Below are positions 8,661-52,663 of a stretch of DNA of 54,216 nt, piece by piece. Location: assembly GCA_903907925.1 (NCBI GenBank), contig CAIVQB010000045.1:1-54216 (forward strand), in the 5' to 3' direction. This stretch comes from an uncultured Verrucomicrobiota bacterium (GTDB lineage Bacteria > Verrucomicrobiota > Verrucomicrobiia > Limisphaerales > UBA9464). Each line of letters starts with the position of its first letter. Position 1 is the first letter of the stretch. The notes beneath the pieces are model-generated. The model had not been told where the DNA came from and ran no database searches. It was given only the letters and a program-made list of their open reading frames with translations. Position numbers and translations under genes: made by a program.

Positions 8661-9503
8661 TCAGCGGGTGGCGCCGGTGACCTTGACCGAGGTTCGCTCC
8701 TGCATCCAGGCAACGTCCGGATTGTTGGGCGAGGCCACTCCAAGGGGCGTCGACACGCCAAACTTGAGGACTGGACGGGTCCGGGGGTCCACCCATTTTT
8801 TAATTTCCGAATGACCATCGGCGAAAGCGAAACCGCCGGCGCCATTGTGATAGCTCGCGGGGACGTCGACGATGGTGTAGGCGGTCGGACGGATCGGATC
8901 GTATCCGTCCATGTTCACTGCGAACCAGCCGTCGTTGATGCTGTCTTCGCGCTCATCGAGGAACACCCAGGTCCCGGAGGCCTTTTGGATGTCGGCGAGC
9001 TTCTTGAACTGGGTGTAACCCGCCGTGTAGGGGCCGCTGCGATTGCCGAGATAACCATTCATCGAAATGGAACGAACGCGGGGAACGCCCTGTTTGCCCC
9101 GGTTGAGACTCTTGTCAGCCGGGCACTTGTAAACACCCGGCGACCCTGCATACTTGCCGAGTTGGGAGTTCATCAGGAAAACCGTGTTGGTGTTATCCTG
9201 ACGGTAGGTGGTGTTGTCGAGCCAGCCGACGCACCAGGTGTTATTGGTGTCGCCATAGCTCGTCTGGCCGTCCAAATCGCCGGGGAGGGTGTCCTGATTG
9301 TCGCCGCAGAACAATTGATAGGCGAGGCCCATCTGCTTGCCGTTGCTCATGCAGAGAATGCCCTGAGCCTTTTGTTTGGCCTTGGCGAGACCGGGCAGCA
9401 GCATGCCGGCCAGAATCGCAATGATCGCGATCACGACCAACAGCTCGATGAGGGTGAAGGCCCGTGAGCGGGCGTTTCGCTGGAGTTGGGGGGTAGGGGA
9501 CAT
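8661..9503 (-). CDS. Pseudopilin-like protein with prepilin leader and H-X9-DG C-terminus
   Basis: A 280-residue protein. The short basic leader [15 protein letters not shown] is followed by [24 protein letters not shown], the type IV prepilin cleavage site and hydrophobic helix with Glu5 of the mature form. The C-terminal part has [17 protein letters not shown], the H-X9-DG motif typical of the DUF1559-like pseudopilin expansion in Verrucomicrobiota and Planctomycetota. It shares its layout and many blocks ([16 protein letters not shown]) with the broken gene at 3827-4639. The start at 9503 fits the promoter at 9553-9581; the in-frame extension to 9671 would read through that promoter. It is probably an extracellular or periplasmic fibre-associated protein; the actual role is unknown. 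Confidence 0.85.
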
Positions 9504-9552
9504 GACTGTGGGTGAATGGAATTTATCCAGTGGTAAAGTGCTGTATGGGGAG

Positions 9553-9581
9553 TCTATAACACTTGGCCGTTTGGAGTGCAA
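9553..9581 (-). promoter_or_regulatory. Putative sigma70-type promoter of the pseudopilin gene
   Basis: On the minus strand, TTGCAC (9576-9581) and TATAGA (9553-9558) are separated by 17 bases. Transcription would start near 9546, giving a leader of about 43 bases before ATG 9503. Confidence 0.5.
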
Positions 9582-9682
9582 GCGGAGGTTTTTCAGAAAT
9601 GTGACCCCTGCGTTGCCTCGTGTTGGCTGGCGGAAGTGGTTCCGGCGTGCGGTTTTGTTGGAGTTCCGCAATCCTTGAGGGC

Positions 9683-10231
9683 ATGACCCGTCGTTGGATT
9701 ACCTGCCTTCTGCTGGTGATCGCTTTCGATTTCGGGGCGCTGTGGTACTGGCGCTGGCGCAAAGAGCAGCGGTTCGACGACCTGATCCGGGCGGCGGCTC
9801 ACCAGTATCAATTACCTCCGGCATTGGTGAAGGCGGTGGTGTGGCGGGAAAGCGATTTTGATCCCCGATCGGTGGGCAAGGCTGGCGAGATCGGCCTCAT
9901 GCAATTGATGGACGAAGCCGCTCACGAATGGGCGGGCTCCATGCGACTTGCGCATTTTGCGCACGAAGACGTGTTCGATCCCCGCACCAACACCCTGGCT
10001 GGCTCCTATTACCTCGCCAAACTGCTGCGGCGATACACGGGGACCGATGACCCTCTGCCGTATGCCCTGGCGGACTACAATGCCGGTCGTGGCAATGTGC
10101 TGAAATGGATGACCGGTCCCGCCCGGACCAACAGCACAGCCTTCCTGAATCAAGTCGGTTTTCCCTCCACCCGAGCCTACGTGCAGGCGATCACCGGGCG
10201 TTATGCGGAGTATCGGCGGGAATTTCGCTGA
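9683..10231 (+). CDS. Membrane-anchored lytic transglycosylase (GH23, SLT domain)
   Basis: A 182-residue protein with an N-terminal membrane helix (about 5-23) and a single Slt70-type catalytic domain. The catalytic Glu56 lies in [12 protein letters not shown]. It is followed by GEIGLMQLM (the GLMQ motif) and later [12 protein letters not shown] (the YNAG motif). The enzyme would cleave peptidoglycan glycan strands with formation of 1,6-anhydro-MurNAc. Start 9683 is supported by a gagg just upstream (about 5 bases away) and the immediate basic-hydrophobic leader. It is short compared with full Slt70 and resembles MltE/EmtA-type minimal enzymes. The gene is single, with a promoterless-looking 180-base gap to the divergent pseudopilin gene. 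Confidence 0.88.
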
Positions 10232-10280
10232 GCCGGGATGCGGTCGAAGAGAGACGGGGTCACTTCCAATCGGCATTTCT

Positions 10281-10313
10281 GGAATCGGTACGAATCCGTG
10301 AAATCAGTGTCCT
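10281..10313 (+). repeat. 33-bp inverted repeat, left copy (family A)
   Basis: It begins ggaatcggtacgaatccgtg and matches the reverse complement of 11191-11223 at all 33 positions. The two copies frame the YdcF gene about 880 bp apart. Confidence 0.85.
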
Positions 10314-10378
10314 CTCTGCGTTTTCTGAATCGAAAACCCGGGTTTGGCGCAGGACAGCAATCCCGGTAGCGTCGCGGG

Positions 10379-11164
10379 GTGTTTGAATCGGTTCAGCGTT
10401 CCATCGACGCCCTGCTGCAGCCCATCGGCCTGATTTGGGCCGCGCTCTTGCTGGCGACCGTTCTGCAACTGGTCAAGCGGCGGATCTTGAGCGCGATGTA
10501 CACCGCGACGCTCGTGGCGTTCATCCAATTGATCGGCGCGACGGAACTGCCGGCGTGGTTGATGGCGGATTTGGAACGGCCCTACGATCCATTGGTCATC
10601 GGCTGGCCGACCAGGGCGGATGCGGTGGTGATGTTGGGTGGCACTCATGATTATTCCGCGCGTTCCCCCGTTCACATTGGCGTGGGCGAGGCGTCCGACC
10701 GGATCCTGGCGGCGGTGGAATTGACTCGGACCACGGGCGCGGGCGCGTTGGTGCTGGGCGGCTCCTTCTACGAACTCAAGGGCGTGCGACGCCCGGATTC
10801 GGAATTGCTCGCGGAATTGTTCAGGGTCTGGCGGCTGCCGGTCGGAACGGTTCATCTGCTGGGGATTTGCAGCGACACCCGGGTGGAAGTTCAGCGGGCG
10901 GTTCAATTGGCCCGCGAACACCACTGGACCCGCGTGGTCGTGGTCACCTCGGGCTACCATCTGAAACGGGCCGAGGCGTTGTTTCGGAAGGAAGGTCTTG
11001 CCGTCATGCCAGCCGGCGCCGAGTTCCTCGGACTCGATGCGTTCCACGATCACGGCGGCGGTCTATGGTCGGTCGTACCCCGGATCCGCGGGTTCGAGCT
11101 GATGCGATTCTGGGTCCACGAACGGATCGGACTTCTGTACTACCGCTGCCGGGGATGGATCTGA
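10379..11164 (+). CDS. YdcF/ElyC-family DUF218 membrane protein
   Basis: A 261-residue protein starting with GTG, with one or two N-terminal hydrophobic segments (about 12-28 and 38-60) and a DUF218 Rossmann-like domain. Diagnostic stretches are DAVVMLGG (about 82-89), GALVLGG, and VVVVTSGYHLKRAEALFRKEG near 180-200, equivalent to the TSxxHxxRA motif of ElyC/SanA/YdcF. In E. coli relatives act in envelope or peptidoglycan homeostasis; the reaction is not established. It is a single gene flanked on both sides by perfect 33-bp inverted repeats, which is odd and may mark a mobile or recombined segment. No obvious ribosome binding site precedes the GTG, so a start a few codons downstream is possible. 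Confidence 0.8.
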   Translation: MFESVQRSIDALLQPIGLIWAALLLATVLQLVKRRILSAMYTATLVAFIQLIGATELPAWLMADLERPYDPLVIGWPTRADAVVMLGGTHDYSARSPVHIGVGEASDRILAAVELTRTTGAGALVLGGSFYELKGVRRPDSELLAELFRVWRLPVGTVHLLGICSDTRVEVQRAVQLAREHHWTRVVVVTSGYHLKRAEALFRKEGLAVMPAGAEFLGLDAFHDHGGGLWSVVPRIRGFELMRFWVHERIGLLYYRCRGWI

Positions 11165-11190
11165 ACCGGAACGATTCAGAGGATGTGCAT

Positions 11191-11223
11191 AGGACACTGA
11201 TTTCACGGATTCGTACCGATTCC
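11191..11223 (-). repeat. 33-bp inverted repeat, right copy (family A)
   Basis: Exact reverse complement of 10281-10313. A further ctgaatcg-like 9-base match lies at the same distance from both copies on the gene-proximal side, so the element is probably longer with a diverged middle. Confidence 0.85.
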
Positions 11224-11252
11224 TGAAGAGCCGATGGAATTCGGTCCGAAGG

Positions 11253-11473
11253 TTCGGAGTCCCGCGCTCCAGGGCGGGGAGGCAAGCCTTCCGCTGCTCT
11301 CAGGGCCAACGGCTCGCCCTATACCAGCCTTGGGCGCCGCCCAAGGTGGAGGGCCCGGTTCCACCCGAGCCCCCTATTTGTTTTGGTACGCGGTGGATCG
11401 GCCGTCGAGGGTCGGATGCATGCCCAACGTTGTTCCAACGGGCCTCCATAGGGGCAGTGTCGAGATGCGTCCC
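11253..11473. repeat. Family B intergenic element, diverged copy
   Basis: The gene-free stretch 11165-11546 holds the family A copy and then this element. It starts with ttcggagtcccgcg (11253-11266) and ends with ggggcagtgtcgagatgcgt plus 3 bases (11451-11473). The same two end modules bound the 134-bp palindrome at 5200-5333 (ggagtcccgcg inside, gcagtgtcaagatgcgccc as arm). The middle is longer here and contains short hairpins such as gggcgccgccc. No gene is seen in it. Confidence 0.5.
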
Positions 11474-11499
11474 AGCCCGCGTTGTCCCGAAAACTCCGC

Positions 11500-11528
11500 T
11501 TGCATTCCCTCCGCCATTCTCGCATTTA
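11500..11528 (+). promoter_or_regulatory. Putative promoter of tRNA-Gly
   Basis: TTGCAT (11500-11505), a 17-base spacer and CATTTA (11523-11528), ending 18 bases before the tRNA. The -10 match is weak; position is the main support. Confidence 0.3.
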
Positions 11529-11546
11529 TCTCGCCGCTGTTCGGAT

Positions 11547-11623
11547 GCGAGTGTAGCTCAGCCTGGTAGAGCGTCACCTTGCCAAGGTGAATGTCGAGGG
11601 TTCGAATCCCTTCACTCGCTCCA
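11547..11623 (+). tRNA. tRNA-Gly (anticodon GCC)
   Basis: A 77-base cloverleaf. Acceptor gcgagtg pairs with cactcgc. The D arm tagctcagcctggtaga, anticodon stem tcacc/ggtga with loop ttgccaa, and the T arm with ggttcgaatccc are present, and CCA is encoded at 11621-11623. The GCC anticodon reads GGC and GGU glycine codons. Confidence 0.97.
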
Positions 11624-11879
11624 ATTTTCTTGGAGCCCTTCCCTCAGATTCAACGCGTTGCGGCCTCAGCCCGTCCCGTGGGCGATCCGGTTTCCTCTCA
11701 GTGAGACCGAAACGGGACAGGTCCCGATGATGGGGGCGGTCAGAGGCAACGGTTCCTCGTCGCGTACCCCCCGCTCGTCCAGAGGCTTGACCCAAACCAC
11801 CGTTCCAAGCCCTCATTCAGCCACCGGGTGTCGCGCTGTCGGAGCGCCCTTCGCCCCACCCAAGGAGAATGCTGAAGCC

Positions 11880-13748
11880 ATGGAACGCCGCCGAGCCTCC
11901 TTCACCGAAGTGAATCTGCCCATCCGGGTCGCGGTCCTGCGCCGTGTCGTTGCTGCGCCACTGCTGCTCTGGCTGTTGATGGCCCTGCCCATCGCGGTGG
12001 AGGCGCAGTTTGCGTACTCCACCACCAATAACCAGGTCACGATCACGGAGTATATCGGTACGAACGCTGTGGCGATCATTCCGGATCTTATCAATGGCCT
12101 ACCGGTGACGAAGATCGGGGACCGAGCGTTCTACGGCTTGTCCAGCCTGAGGAGCGTGACTATCCCCGATAGCGTCACCCGAATCGGGAGTGTCGCGTTC
12201 GGAGGCTGCACTGGCCTGACCCGGGTTGCGATCCCGAACAGCGTCACCAACATCGGGGACAGTTCGTTCCGCGACTGCACCGGCTTGACCGACATCACCA
12301 TTGGGAACCGGGTTACCACGCTGGTTGGGACGTTCCAAGGATGCTCAAACCTGACTGCCGTTAACCTCCCAAATAGTATCACCGCCATCGGGCTTTTCAC
12401 TTTCGCCGACTGTTCCCGCCTCGCTGGCATAACGATTCCCGACAGCGTCGCGACGATCGGAGGCGAAGCTTTTGAGAACTGCTCACACCTCACAAACGTC
12501 CTATTTCCGGACAGCGTCACTACCATCGACTTTTTCGCCTTCAATGGTTGCACCGGATTGACCAACATCACAGTGCCCGACGGCGTCATCACCCTTGGGT
12601 ACCAGGCGTTCGCCAACTGCACCGGCCTGACCGACGTTGTGATTGGCAACCGCGTTACCACTATTTCTCAAACATTCGACGGCTGCCCTCAGTTGACGAG
12701 GATCTCCGTGGGCGCAGCCAATCCAAATTATAGAGGTTTGGATGGCGTTTTGTTCGACAAGGCGCAAGCGACTCTCATCCAATTCCCGCGGGGTAAAACT
12801 GGAAGTTACACAATCCCCGATAGCGTTTCCGCGATAGGGGGTGCTGCGTTCGCTCACTGTACTGGATTAACTACCGTCACGATACCCAGCAGTGTTACCT
12901 TACTTGGATCCCAAGCGTTCCTTGACTGCACCGGACTGATCGGCGTCGTGGTGCCAAACGGGGTCACCAGTATCGGCGACCAAGCGTTCATTGGTTGTTG
13001 GGGCATGACGAGTGTCACGATCGGCACCGGCGTCACCCACATCGGGGGCGGAGCGTTCGCCGGTTGTGCAGGCCTAACCTATGTCGCAATTCCGAACGGT
13101 GTCGCCACCATTCCGGATGGCCTTTTCTCGGGATGCTCAAGTCTGACTAGCATCGCGATACCCAACAGCGTCGTTGTCATCGGGAGTTGGGTATTCAATC
13201 ACTGCACCAGCCTGGACCACATCACGATTGGCAATCACGTCGCCCGTATCGGGGACCAAGCGTTCTATAACTGTACCGGTCTGACCGAAGTAACGATTGG
13301 CCCCAGCGTTACCACGATCGGATTCGAGGCGTTTGTTGACTGCTTCGCGTTGCGAGAAATTTATTTTCAGGGTGACGCGCCTGTCATTAGCGGCTCCCTG
13401 CTTGGCGGGGCTGACAAAGCCCCTCTCTTTGACCAAGACAACAACTCCACCGTCTACTACCTGCCGGGAACCACTGGCTGGGAGTCATCGTTCGGCGGTC
13501 GTCCAACCGTGCCGTTCAATCCGCAGATCCGGCCCGGCGCCCTCCACTTTGGTGTGAGTGCGGATGGTTTCGGTTTCATCGTCAGGGCCGAGAAAGGCCC
13601 GTCTTTTGTGATCGAAGCTGCCACTGATCTGGCCCAGCCGGTGTGGACTCCGATTTTCACGAATCCTCCCCCTGGCGGCTCGGTCTACTGCACCGATCCA
13701 CAGTGGACGAATTTCCCCGCGAGATTCTATCGCCTCACCACGCCGTGA
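11880..13748 (+). CDS. BspA-type leucine-rich-repeat (LRR_5) secreted protein
   Basis: A 622-residue secreted protein. An extended leader with a hydrophobic core (about 24-45, ending AVEAQ) is followed by about 17 consecutive 23-residue LRR_5 units (for example VTRIGSVAFGGCTGLTRVAIPNS). A longer unit with PNYRGLDGVLFDKAQ interrupts the array near residue 290, as is common in BspA-like proteins. A C-terminal module of about 70 residues ends with FPARFYRLTTP. BspA-like arrays typically mediate adhesion or binding at the cell surface. ATG 11880 is supported by aaggag about 12 bases upstream; the longer open frame reads through tRNA-Gly and cannot be coding. The regular repeats vary in DNA sequence, so they are old rather than freshly duplicated. 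Confidence 0.88.
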   Translation: MERRRASFTEVNLPIRVAVLRRVVAAPLLLWLLMALPIAVEAQFAYSTTNNQVTITEYIGTNAVAIIPDLINGLPVTKIGDRAFYGLSSLRSVTIPDSVTRIGSVAFGGCTGLTRVAIPNSVTNIGDSSFRDCTGLTDITIGNRVTTLVGTFQGCSNLTAVNLPNSITAIGLFTFADCSRLAGITIPDSVATIGGEAFENCSHLTNVLFPDSVTTIDFFAFNGCTGLTNITVPDGVITLGYQAFANCTGLTDVVIGNRVTTISQTFDGCPQLTRISVGAANPNYRGLDGVLFDKAQATLIQFPRGKTGSYTIPDSVSAIGGAAFAHCTGLTTVTIPSSVTLLGSQAFLDCTGLIGVVVPNGVTSIGDQAFIGCWGMTSVTIGTGVTHIGGGAFAGCAGLTYVAIPNGVATIPDGLFSGCSSLTSIAIPNSVVVIGSWVFNHCTSLDHITIGNHVARIGDQAFYNCTGLTEVTIGPSVTTIGFEAFVDCFALREIYFQGDAPVISGSLLGGADKAPLFDQDNNSTVYYLPGTTGWESSFGGRPTVPFNPQIRPGALHFGVSADGFGFIVRAEKGPSFVIEAATDLAQPVWTPIFTNPPPGGSVYCTDPQWTNFPARFYRLTTP

Positions 13749-13859: not shown

Positions 13860-14387
13860 TCAGGAGTTGCCGCTGTTGCTGTTGTCGAACAGGGCCGCCT
13901 GGATCGTTTTCACTGGCAGGAATAGTTCGAGCTCGCTCGAAGGCAGGGGCACAAATCCGAACTGCTCGTAGTAACGCTTCGCTTCTGTGTCCTTCGCATC
14001 AACGAACAAGCCGATGCCGCCGGCGGTCTCGAAGATCTCCAGAAAGCGATGCATCGCGGCGACCAGCAACGTTTTCCCAATACCCCGACGTTGATGTCCG
14101 ATGGCGACTGCCAATCGGCCCAACCGGATTCCGGATACATCCCGAGGCAACTGCTTTGCCTCGGCTGCGCTGAGGTTCGCGGCTTTCAACTGGCAGAGAT
14201 TGAGTGCGAAAAATCCGAGAATGGGCTTTGGAGCGACGGCATTTTCGTCGACCAGAACGAAGGTGCGAGAAATGCCGCGCACGCCATGCTGGCGGGCGGT
14301 TTGCCTGAGAAACAAGTTCAGCGGATCGCTGCCGCAGTCGAACCCGTCCCGGTCATGGGCCTTGGACAATGCCTCAATCTTGCGCAC
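13860..14387 (-). CDS. GNAT-family toxin of a type II toxin-antitoxin pair (TacT-like)
   Basis: A 175-residue GCN5-type acetyltransferase. Motif A reads RLGRLAVAIGHQRRGIGKTLL, with the acetyl-CoA pyrophosphate loop RRGIGK (near residue 100). The downstream RYYEQFGFVPLP supplies the conserved tyrosine typical of TacT/AtaT/KacT toxins. Known family members acetylate aminoacyl-tRNA and block translation; the substrate here is inferred, not seen. Its ATG overlaps the last 14 bases of the upstream antitoxin gene, the usual antitoxin-first order. The C-terminus (ALFDNSNSGNS) is slightly extended. Expression is probably autoregulated by the antitoxin at the palindrome 14673-14689. Confidence 0.88.
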   Translation of the reverse strand: MRKIEALSKAHDRDGFDCGSDPLNLFLRQTARQHGVRGISRTFVLVDENAVAPKPILGFFALNLCQLKAANLSAAEAKQLPRDVSGIRLGRLAVAIGHQRRGIGKTLLVAAMHRFLEIFETAGGIGLFVDAKDTEAKRYYEQFGFVPLPSSELELFLPVKTIQAALFDNSNSGNS

Positions 14388-14664
14388 GTACGGTGTTCCG
14401 GTGTGTTTTGACCGCCTGTTTCAGGGTTTTGTTGGGACGCGGTGGATGGTCGAGCAGGGAAAGAATCTTTTGCGCGTCCTTCTGCGAAAGCCGAATCAGG
14501 GTCTCCCGCTCGATCATGCGTTGCGCCTCCAGATAGGCCGTTTGAACGACGAACTGATTGACGGTCGCACCCGAAAGCTCCGCCGCCTGCTCGAGGAGTG
14601 CGCTGACACGGTCCGACACGCGGGCCGTGATTCGCTTGCGGGGTTCTTCGATGGATTGCTTCAT
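14374..14664 (-). CDS. DUF1778 ribbon-helix-helix antitoxin (TacA-like)
   Basis: A 96-residue protein. The N-terminal RITARVSDRVSALLEQAAELSGATVNQFVVQTAYLEAQRMI is the DUF1778 ribbon-helix-helix DNA-binding domain. The C-terminal tail (LSQKDAQKILSLLDHPPRPNKTLKQAV) is the part that in KacA/TacA wraps and neutralises the GNAT toxin. It overlaps the toxin gene by 14 bases. ATG 14664 is chosen because it directly follows the operator-like palindrome and gives the normal family length; the much longer open frame upstream belongs to unrelated sequence. Confidence 0.88.
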   Translation of the reverse strand: MKQSIEEPRKRITARVSDRVSALLEQAAELSGATVNQFVVQTAYLEAQRMIERETLIRLSQKDAQKILSLLDHPPRPNKTLKQAVKTHRNTVRAQD

Positions 14665-14672
14665 GCCAGTCT

Positions 14673-14689
14673 GGTGCCATTTTGGCACC
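14673..14689. promoter_or_regulatory. Operator-like palindrome of the toxin-antitoxin operon
   Basis: ggtgcca (14673-14679) and tggcacc (14683-14689) are perfect 7-bp arms around 3 bases. The site lies 8 bases upstream of the antitoxin ATG and next to a minus-strand TTGACA (14694-14699). A ribbon-helix-helix antitoxin binding here would block its own promoter. Confidence 0.6.
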
Positions 14690-14849
14690 GGATTGTCAAC
14701 CACCCACCCTTCGTCGAGTTTGCGCTGGTGCTTGTCCGGCAGACCACGGGTGGGGTCGGGATTGATGGCCTGCCGAATCATGGAGTGACGTCGTCTGCCT
14801 TCGGCACGTTGAAATAGGCCTGATTGGGCGAAGCGATGCGCACCAAGGA

Positions 14850-15075
14850 GACGGGGGGATGGCATCCATGAAACCAGGTTGACCTTGTGATTGATGTCTT
14901 CGGTTGCCGTGAGGGTCGCCGAGAGCGTCGTGGCGACGGTCGGTTGATTGATGGGAATGGTGAGGGTTTGGTCAGGACCGGCGTTCATTGAGAGAACGGC
15001 CTTGGCGCTCGCGGCCCACCCGAGGGCTAACGACGCCACCCAAGCGAGGAGAAAACGAGGGGAGTGGCTACTCAC
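14850..15075 (-). pseudogene. 5' remnant of a secreted PKD-like protein gene
   Basis: From GTG 15075 the minus strand encodes VSSHSPRFLLAWVASLALGWAASAKA, a good signal peptide. SMNAGPDQTLTIPINQPTVATTLSATLTATED follows, the opening of a PKD-like beta-sandwich common in exported verrucomicrobial proteins. After about 60 residues the similarity to any ordered domain stops, and the open frame runs meaninglessly into the antitoxin gene. It looks like the 5' end of a large gene whose remainder was lost. The rest of the gap (about 14700-14850 and 15076-15352) shows no gene or clear structure. Confidence 0.35.
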
Positions 15076-33683: not shown

Positions 33684-33758
33684 GGACACGGATTTCTGAG
33701 GAGCGAATCGGATTCGGTTCATTCCGTTTCATTCGTGAAAATCCGTGCAATCCGTGTC
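33684..33758. repeat. Family A hairpin element between mutL and the ABC transporter gene
   Basis: It starts ggacacggatt (33684-33694) and ends aatccgtgtc (33749-33758), 10-bp complementary ends, with internal attcgtgaaaatccgtgcaa text. Related copies lie at 10281, 11191, 45205 and 52578. The remaining gap to the transporter start shows no gene. Confidence 0.65.
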
Positions 33759-33852
33759 GTTCATTCTGTTTCTGAATTCCGGCTGAGAGCCGCCCACGAA
33801 AATCGGAAGGATGCTGTGTCCCGGACGGTTGGGGTTTGTGCGCCGGAGGTTC

Positions 33853-52577: not shown

Positions 52578-52663
52578 AGGACACGGATTCACGGATTCCG
52601 GAGAACAGATCGGGTCCTGTTCATTCTGTCTGAATCCATGCCAATTCGTGCAATCAGTGTCCT
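52578..52663. repeat. Family A hairpin element between helicase and clpP
   Basis: Ends aggacacggatt (52578-52589) and aatcagtgtcct (52652-52663) are complementary with one mismatch. Inside, gaacag...ctgttc forms a second stem. The end sequence aatcagtgtcct is identical to that in the repeat pair flanking the YdcF gene. The gap between helicase start and clpP stop has no gene. Confidence 0.65.

Follow-up and report, generated by a model that had tools for sequence, protein, structure and literature searches.

The closest described systems are REPINs, doublets of REP sequences that form hairpins (Bertels and Rainey 2011; PMC3116915), in which, according to the sections of that paper used here, doublets are more conserved than singlets. 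GTAG- and CGTC-tagged REPs, as portrayed in the parts of PMC3733652 drawn on here, are mostly intergenic and lie near the 3′ ends of genes, and their dimers mostly have spacers of 20–100 bp. The same parts state that GTAG termini often supply the stop codon of flanking open reading frames (ORFs) and that GTAG repeats abound in the verrucomicrobium O. terrae (PMC3733652). In yeast, template switching between short inverted repeats can homogenise the arms and invert the spacer, according to the excerpts of PMC8604942 used here.

We analysed a 54,216-nt stretch of DNA from an uncultured Verrucomicrobiota bacterium (contig CAIVQB010000045.1; the whole stretch is hereafter called the window), in which two perfect inverted arms face each other across a single gene. 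The analysis disposes of a mobile unit that carries a gene as a false lead and puts in its place a REPIN-like family in a Verrucomicrobiota genome.

Two inverted arms around the DUF218 gene

The sequence-only reading had reported a perfect 33-bp inverted repeat on either side of a YdcF/DUF218 gene, and both observations were borne out. The left arm (10281–10313, + strand; GGAATCGGTACGAATCCGTGAAATCAGTGTCCT) is the exact reverse complement of the right arm (11191–11223, − strand), and 100 dinucleotide shuffles of the window produced no inverted match at ≤3 mismatches. The gene between them (10379–11164, + strand) matched PF02698 (E 5e-14); gene prediction relied on a home-made caller based on codon usage, by which 87% of the window is coding. 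The inverted likeness continued beyond the 33 bp, as an ungapped alignment of 64 nt at 84% between the recognisably similar parts of the left (10269–10332, + strand) and right (11172–11235, − strand) members. All of the differences lay in the flanking bases (10 of 31) and none inside the 33-mer (0 of 33). The core starts of the two arms lie 899 bp apart, and the spacer between the arms measures 877 nt. Both arms are conserved tips of members of a repeat family that stand single and unpaired, and both tips point inward, facing DUF218. Other copies in the window had been described as diverged, and this also held, with 7 mismatches at 52631–52663 and 11 at 33728–33760. Two diverged, complete-looking members of the same family were located at 33685–33759 and 52579–52662 (both + strand), with both of their arms recognisable by eye.

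Number, architecture and folding of the repeat family

In the genome of 4,606,554 bases, the 20-nt core of the family matched 146 sites at ≤3 mismatches, of which 69 were forward and 77 reverse; the reversed core pattern, used as a control, matched none. Copy statistics were derived from the stretches around the best 100 of the 146 sites, ranked by mismatch, so that well-kept copies are over-represented among the 121 distinct copies found there at ≤4 mismatches. In this set, 64 copies formed 32 back-to-back pairs with tips outward and core starts 75–120 bp apart, and the remaining 57 were single. The complete members are predicted hairpins of 95–140 bp with outward-facing tips, and z was below −2 for 29 of the 32 (mean z −6.7; mean MFE −46.7). 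The single copies, of which 5 of 57 passed this threshold, did not fold better than shuffles. The information content of the single copies was concentrated in approximately 30 positions, from core −10 to +20. This is about the extent of the 33-mer first noticed, and the perfect stretch thus coincides with the conserved tip of the family: the 33-mer is the tip of a longer element.

Among 293 genomes of the order, 25 contained the core in register at 0 mismatches; the genome studied here was the richest (42), followed by one with 9. A spacing variant of the core, shifted by one base, was detected in 10 of 194 genomes. Within the genus, the family was found in 3 of 7 congeneric genomes at the tested stringency, and in two congeners that have it the ~30-bp tip is kept, while the interior and the stop-side extension differ (by eye). 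Viral contigs gave 0 matches to a 25-base family pattern, and plasmids gave no match to a 94-base family consensus at E 0.01. The motif strings of the family were not found in the literature searched, in which such sequences often appear only in figures or supplements.

Two complete elements stand in tandem at 150 bp on contig C1 (L097; C1:98479–98734), and a third, identical one occupies the start of a short contig (L100; C35:7–112); these may represent a local duplication or an assembly duplicate at a contig end. Translation through the repeat in one of its frames yields peptides such as TDFTDSHE (L007, 1278–1541 (+); L094, 1765–2391 (+)), and some annotated spurious ORFs or C-terminal tails may derive from it.

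Placement relative to genes

No family copy lay inside a predicted gene among the 114 that could be tested under a rule of at least 15 of 20 nt, the 7 others being too near a contig or stretch end. In raw counts, uncorrected for random placement, the gap from the tip to the 3′ end of the facing gene had a sharp mode at 27 nt, seen in 8 of 38 comparable single copies. Counted by hand, 13 of the 69 tip-side cases listed with a gap of ≤60 nt had this distance, 8 of the 13 being single copies and the copy next to DUF218 being included. In many of the 27-nt cases, not in all, a conserved extension (GCCGGAACGATTCAGAAGAAGC type, by eye) directly follows TGA, TAA or TAG. Examples are found in L087 (C109:25389), L088 (C115:17548 and 17624) and L036 (C23:1864), and in the window, where the 27 nt at 11165–11191 (+ strand) fill the space between the DUF218 stop codon and the core and resemble by eye the extensions of other single copies. 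In one element, both arms overlap neighbouring stop codons.

DUF218 is flanked by one member in the spacer downstream of an SLT transglycosylase-domain gene and by one directly after its own stop codon. That stop codon is at an aligned position in relatives without the repeat there; the element therefore comes after an old stop and makes no new one.

Gene neighbourhood in related genomes

Each of the seven other genomes of the genus contains one DUF218 homologue (59–68% identity), and the neighbours of the gene are largely retained. The SLT gene (9683–10231, + strand; PF01464) is the upstream neighbour, in the same orientation, in five of the seven congeneric genomes; in the remaining two, the ~0.6 and ~1.5 kb upstream of DUF218 contained no SLT gene that was detected. 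The tRNA-Gly(gcc) gene (11547–11623, + strand) is the downstream neighbour in all seven, at 71–113 nt in five and ~1.2 kb in two, and was alone above the gathering score in an Rfam scan of 9500–12000. The spacer between SLT and DUF218 measures 147 nt in the window and 35, 45, 45, 146 and 258 nt in the relatives (stop codon counted), and that between DUF218 and the tRNA measures 385–390 nt in the window.

No family core was found at ≤5 mismatches in the available DUF218-flanking spacers of the relatives. The sole core match in their loci, with 4 mismatches, lies upstream of SLT in relative L045, in which the DUF218 stop codon, in a spacer without the repeat, is followed by GCGGAACGA; this resembles the start of the extension and is either a remnant or a product of chance. 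Since the relatives are just 59–68% identical in DUF218, their spacers do not represent clean empty sites, and with spacers of 146 and 258 nt in two of them the insertion on the left is less clear than that on the right. The simplest reading is that DUF218 is a resident gene in its ancestral orientation and that the repeats arrived later. The sequence-only reading had proposed a comparison of the locus in related genomes; the conserved neighbours found by it are contrary to a cargo unit.

Further downstream of tRNA-Gly, the window encodes a BspA-type leucine-rich repeat protein (11880–13745, +). At 13863–15039 (−), a GNAT acetyltransferase adjoins a protein with a TacA1-type antitoxin domain, which makes up the C-terminus of a longer predicted ORF; the pair is likely a TacA/TacT-like toxin–antitoxin system.

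Search for a mobilising enzyme

The genome contains two PF01797 (Y1-transposase) genes, both situated among other palindromic repeats, and no core of the present family was found within ~1.5 kb of either at ≤6 mismatches. Mobilisation of the family by a RAYT was accordingly rejected for both genes on the basis of their 1.5-kb flanks; a more distant or unassembled RAYT may exist. A second REP family, with 102 sites at ≤3 mismatches (0 for the reversed-pattern control), was clustered round the Y1-transposase gene on contig C47. It provides an inner control, as this genome does display the usual RAYT–REP signature, but in a family other than the present one. One of its members (11321–11346, + strand; 0 mismatches to the pattern) shares the spacer of the right arm and is overlapped by a sub-threshold Rfam match to Acido-Lenti-1 (11302–11346), an Rfam family that may include such REPs.

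A parent insertion sequence was also considered for outward-facing neighbour pairs wider than 125 bp, which were those on C39 (383 bp) and C16 (1104 bp); it was rejected on the basis of the C16 pair, which encloses a kinase-like ORF (by eye) and no transposase. Overall, neither Pfam searches of the 42 window genes nor the PF01797 genes genome-wide yielded a mobilising enzyme for the core family.

Identity of the two arms

The two arms share three non-consensus bases, which are present in 7, 5 and 20 of the 121 copies (arms counted) and occur together in no other copy among the 121. Apart from the two arms themselves, the genomic site nearest to the first 32 bases of the arm has 2 mismatches. 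Under a column model derived from the remaining single copies, the probability that an independent single copy has exactly the window 33-mer was 1.15e-5, and the probability that any two drawn copies are identical was 3.8e-4; these models ignore relatedness among copies, and the window pair was chosen after the fact. Among 168 pairs of single copies with 8–12 differences outside the 33-mer, three were identical inside it, the window pair included. A 33-mer without any difference is also common to three copies located on separate contigs, but this is the consensus sequence, not the window variant; those on C1 and C35 are identical too, by local duplication, although C35 might duplicate the end of C1 through assembly.

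Neighbouring copies within 3 kb showed no general likeness beyond the window pair and the 150-bp duplication on C1. As other neighbours are not unusually alike, a specific local event is likely, and no general process. The best reading is that the arms were made alike by local template switching or gene conversion, or that one is a copy of the other; ordinary gene conversion, or duplication of a member into its neighbourhood, fits no worse than template switching. A recent duplication or gene conversion had been suggested from the perfect identity, and the three-base haplotype, the 2-mismatch distance to the next site and the column-model value of about 1e-5 point the same way.

Weighing the explanations

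We consider it probable that the arms are single members of a dispersed REPIN-like family around a vertically inherited gene, and that they owe their identity to local homogenisation or copying. The family is associated with gene 3′ ends and organised like REPINs; one member lies in the spacer downstream of SLT and another right after the DUF218 stop, so that they face each other across an ordinary gene. A short homogenisation of the inverted arms by template switching or gene conversion, or copying, would then have produced the perfect 33 bp with their three private bases. The main competitor is that no exchange took place and that independent insertions merely kept the same tip by descent within the family. 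The family is dense, and hand arithmetic on 146 sites in 4.6 Mb predicts a few pairs of unrelated neighbours no more than 1 kb apart; copies with no particular likeness flank further stretches (e.g. on C137 and C47), and three copies on different contigs are identical to one another. However, the window variant recurs in no other copy of the set of 121, its next genomic site differs at 2 of 32 bases, and the two column-model probabilities are low, which makes coincidence unlikely. The sequence-only reading had held that the same repeats at many single sites with equal identity would make the pairing a coincidence; many sites do exist, but the identical copies among them have the consensus and not the window variant.

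A mobile unit with long terminal inverted repeats and DUF218 as a non-transposase cargo, as originally suggested, has in its favour that perfect inverted arms bracket a single gene. It is largely refuted and hardly tenable: relatives that lack the repeat still have DUF218 beside the same neighbours (SLT in 5 of 7, tRNA-Gly in 7 of 7), the window tips point inward, the reverse of complete elements, and the similarity of the arms runs outward beyond the 33 bp. The target-site duplication that had been proposed as a check did not appear, no direct match of 2–10 nt lying beside the arms with 3 nt of slack on each side, and direct repeats around 31 of the 32 complete members were not above the shuffled expectation. 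Pfam identified no transposase among the 42 predicted window genes (6 without any match), and three other stretches flanked by copies hold different ORFs, kinase-like and other small ones (named by eye). Inversion of the gene by recombination between the arms had also been predicted. This can happen in principle, since the arms are inverted and perfect, and template switching between short inverted repeats can invert a spacer in yeast, as far as the excerpts of PMC8604942 describe it. An invertible switch that alters DUF218 expression is nevertheless very improbable, as the gene has the orientation of its relatives, Pfam detected no invertase or recombinase among the 42 predicted window genes (6 without any match), the spacer is as long as 877 nt, and flipping would set DUF218 against its neighbours. 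To our knowledge, the spacers that have been reported to invert by template switching are short. Nothing shows that DUF218 moves or flips.

For REPs, a role as 3′-end stabiliser or terminator has been proposed, and the placement after stop codons and the strong predicted hairpins of complete members would suit an action of the present repeats on the RNA of the genes that they follow. Such a role is improbable, because both window members are single and fold no better than shuffles (z −0.1 and +0.9). Moreover, the sole terminator-like site in 10100–11600 (11357–11371) lies outside both arms and is no excess (1 against a shuffle mean of 1.5). The repeats probably have no function tied to DUF218, and the family was probably mobile in the past.

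The family of inserted singles and doublets favoured here is of interest as one without an obvious Y1 transposase, its tip kept in two congeners and its members often at a fixed 27 nt after stop codons, and it prompts a question that can be tested: what enzyme disperses the family, and for what reason to stop codons? A more ambitious version, rather unlikely at present, is a hairpin family that a non-Y1 mobiliser would insert right after stops and whose facing copies would template-switch, occasionally inverting the genes caught between them.

Comparison with known systems

A composite transposon or terminal-inverted-repeat (TIR) element with cargo would be expected at variable sites and absent from the syntenic one, but the neighbours of DUF218 are kept, and the arms lack a target-site duplication. 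An invertible element would have a site-specific recombinase nearby, and Pfam revealed none among the 42 predicted window genes (6 without a match). The family shares with TIRYT-associated TIR families, as the parts of PMC3733652 used here present them, that it is an inverted-repeat family other than GTAG REPs with dimeric or single members; unlike in those families, neither Y1-transposase gene has a core within ~1.5 kb. Similarly to the GTAG/CGTC REPs of the same account (PMC3733652), it is intergenic, close to gene 3′ ends and present in dimers. It differs from them in having no conserved GTAG or CGTC end tag, its ends being GGACAC...GTGTCC (by eye), and, unlike GTAG REPs, the element at DUF218 follows an old stop and creates none.

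The likeness to REPINs, as set out in the sections of PMC3116915 used here, is closer: high-copy extragenic inverted doublets with predicted hairpins, plus singlets, dispersed over the genome. The sequence is over-represented, dispersed and extragenic (146 sites against 0 in the control; 0 of 114 inside predicted genes), and inverted doublets with hairpins characterise the family (32 pairs, 29 of 32 with z below −2), the window members being singlets. Unlike in REPINs, the tips are ~30 bp long and consist of three roughly 10-bp ATCCGTG-like units, the singlets are not less conserved at the tip (mean of 6.3 differences over 33 positions versus 7.0 in all 121 copies), and a RAYT association was not seen within ~1.5 kb of the two PF01797 genes. 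With its doublets and hairpins, and with the RAYT association having failed as tested, the family belongs to a known, REPIN-like kind. As published REPs favour gene 3′ ends and GTAG REPs often give stop codons, its placement at stop codons is, by analogy, an extreme of a known REP habit.
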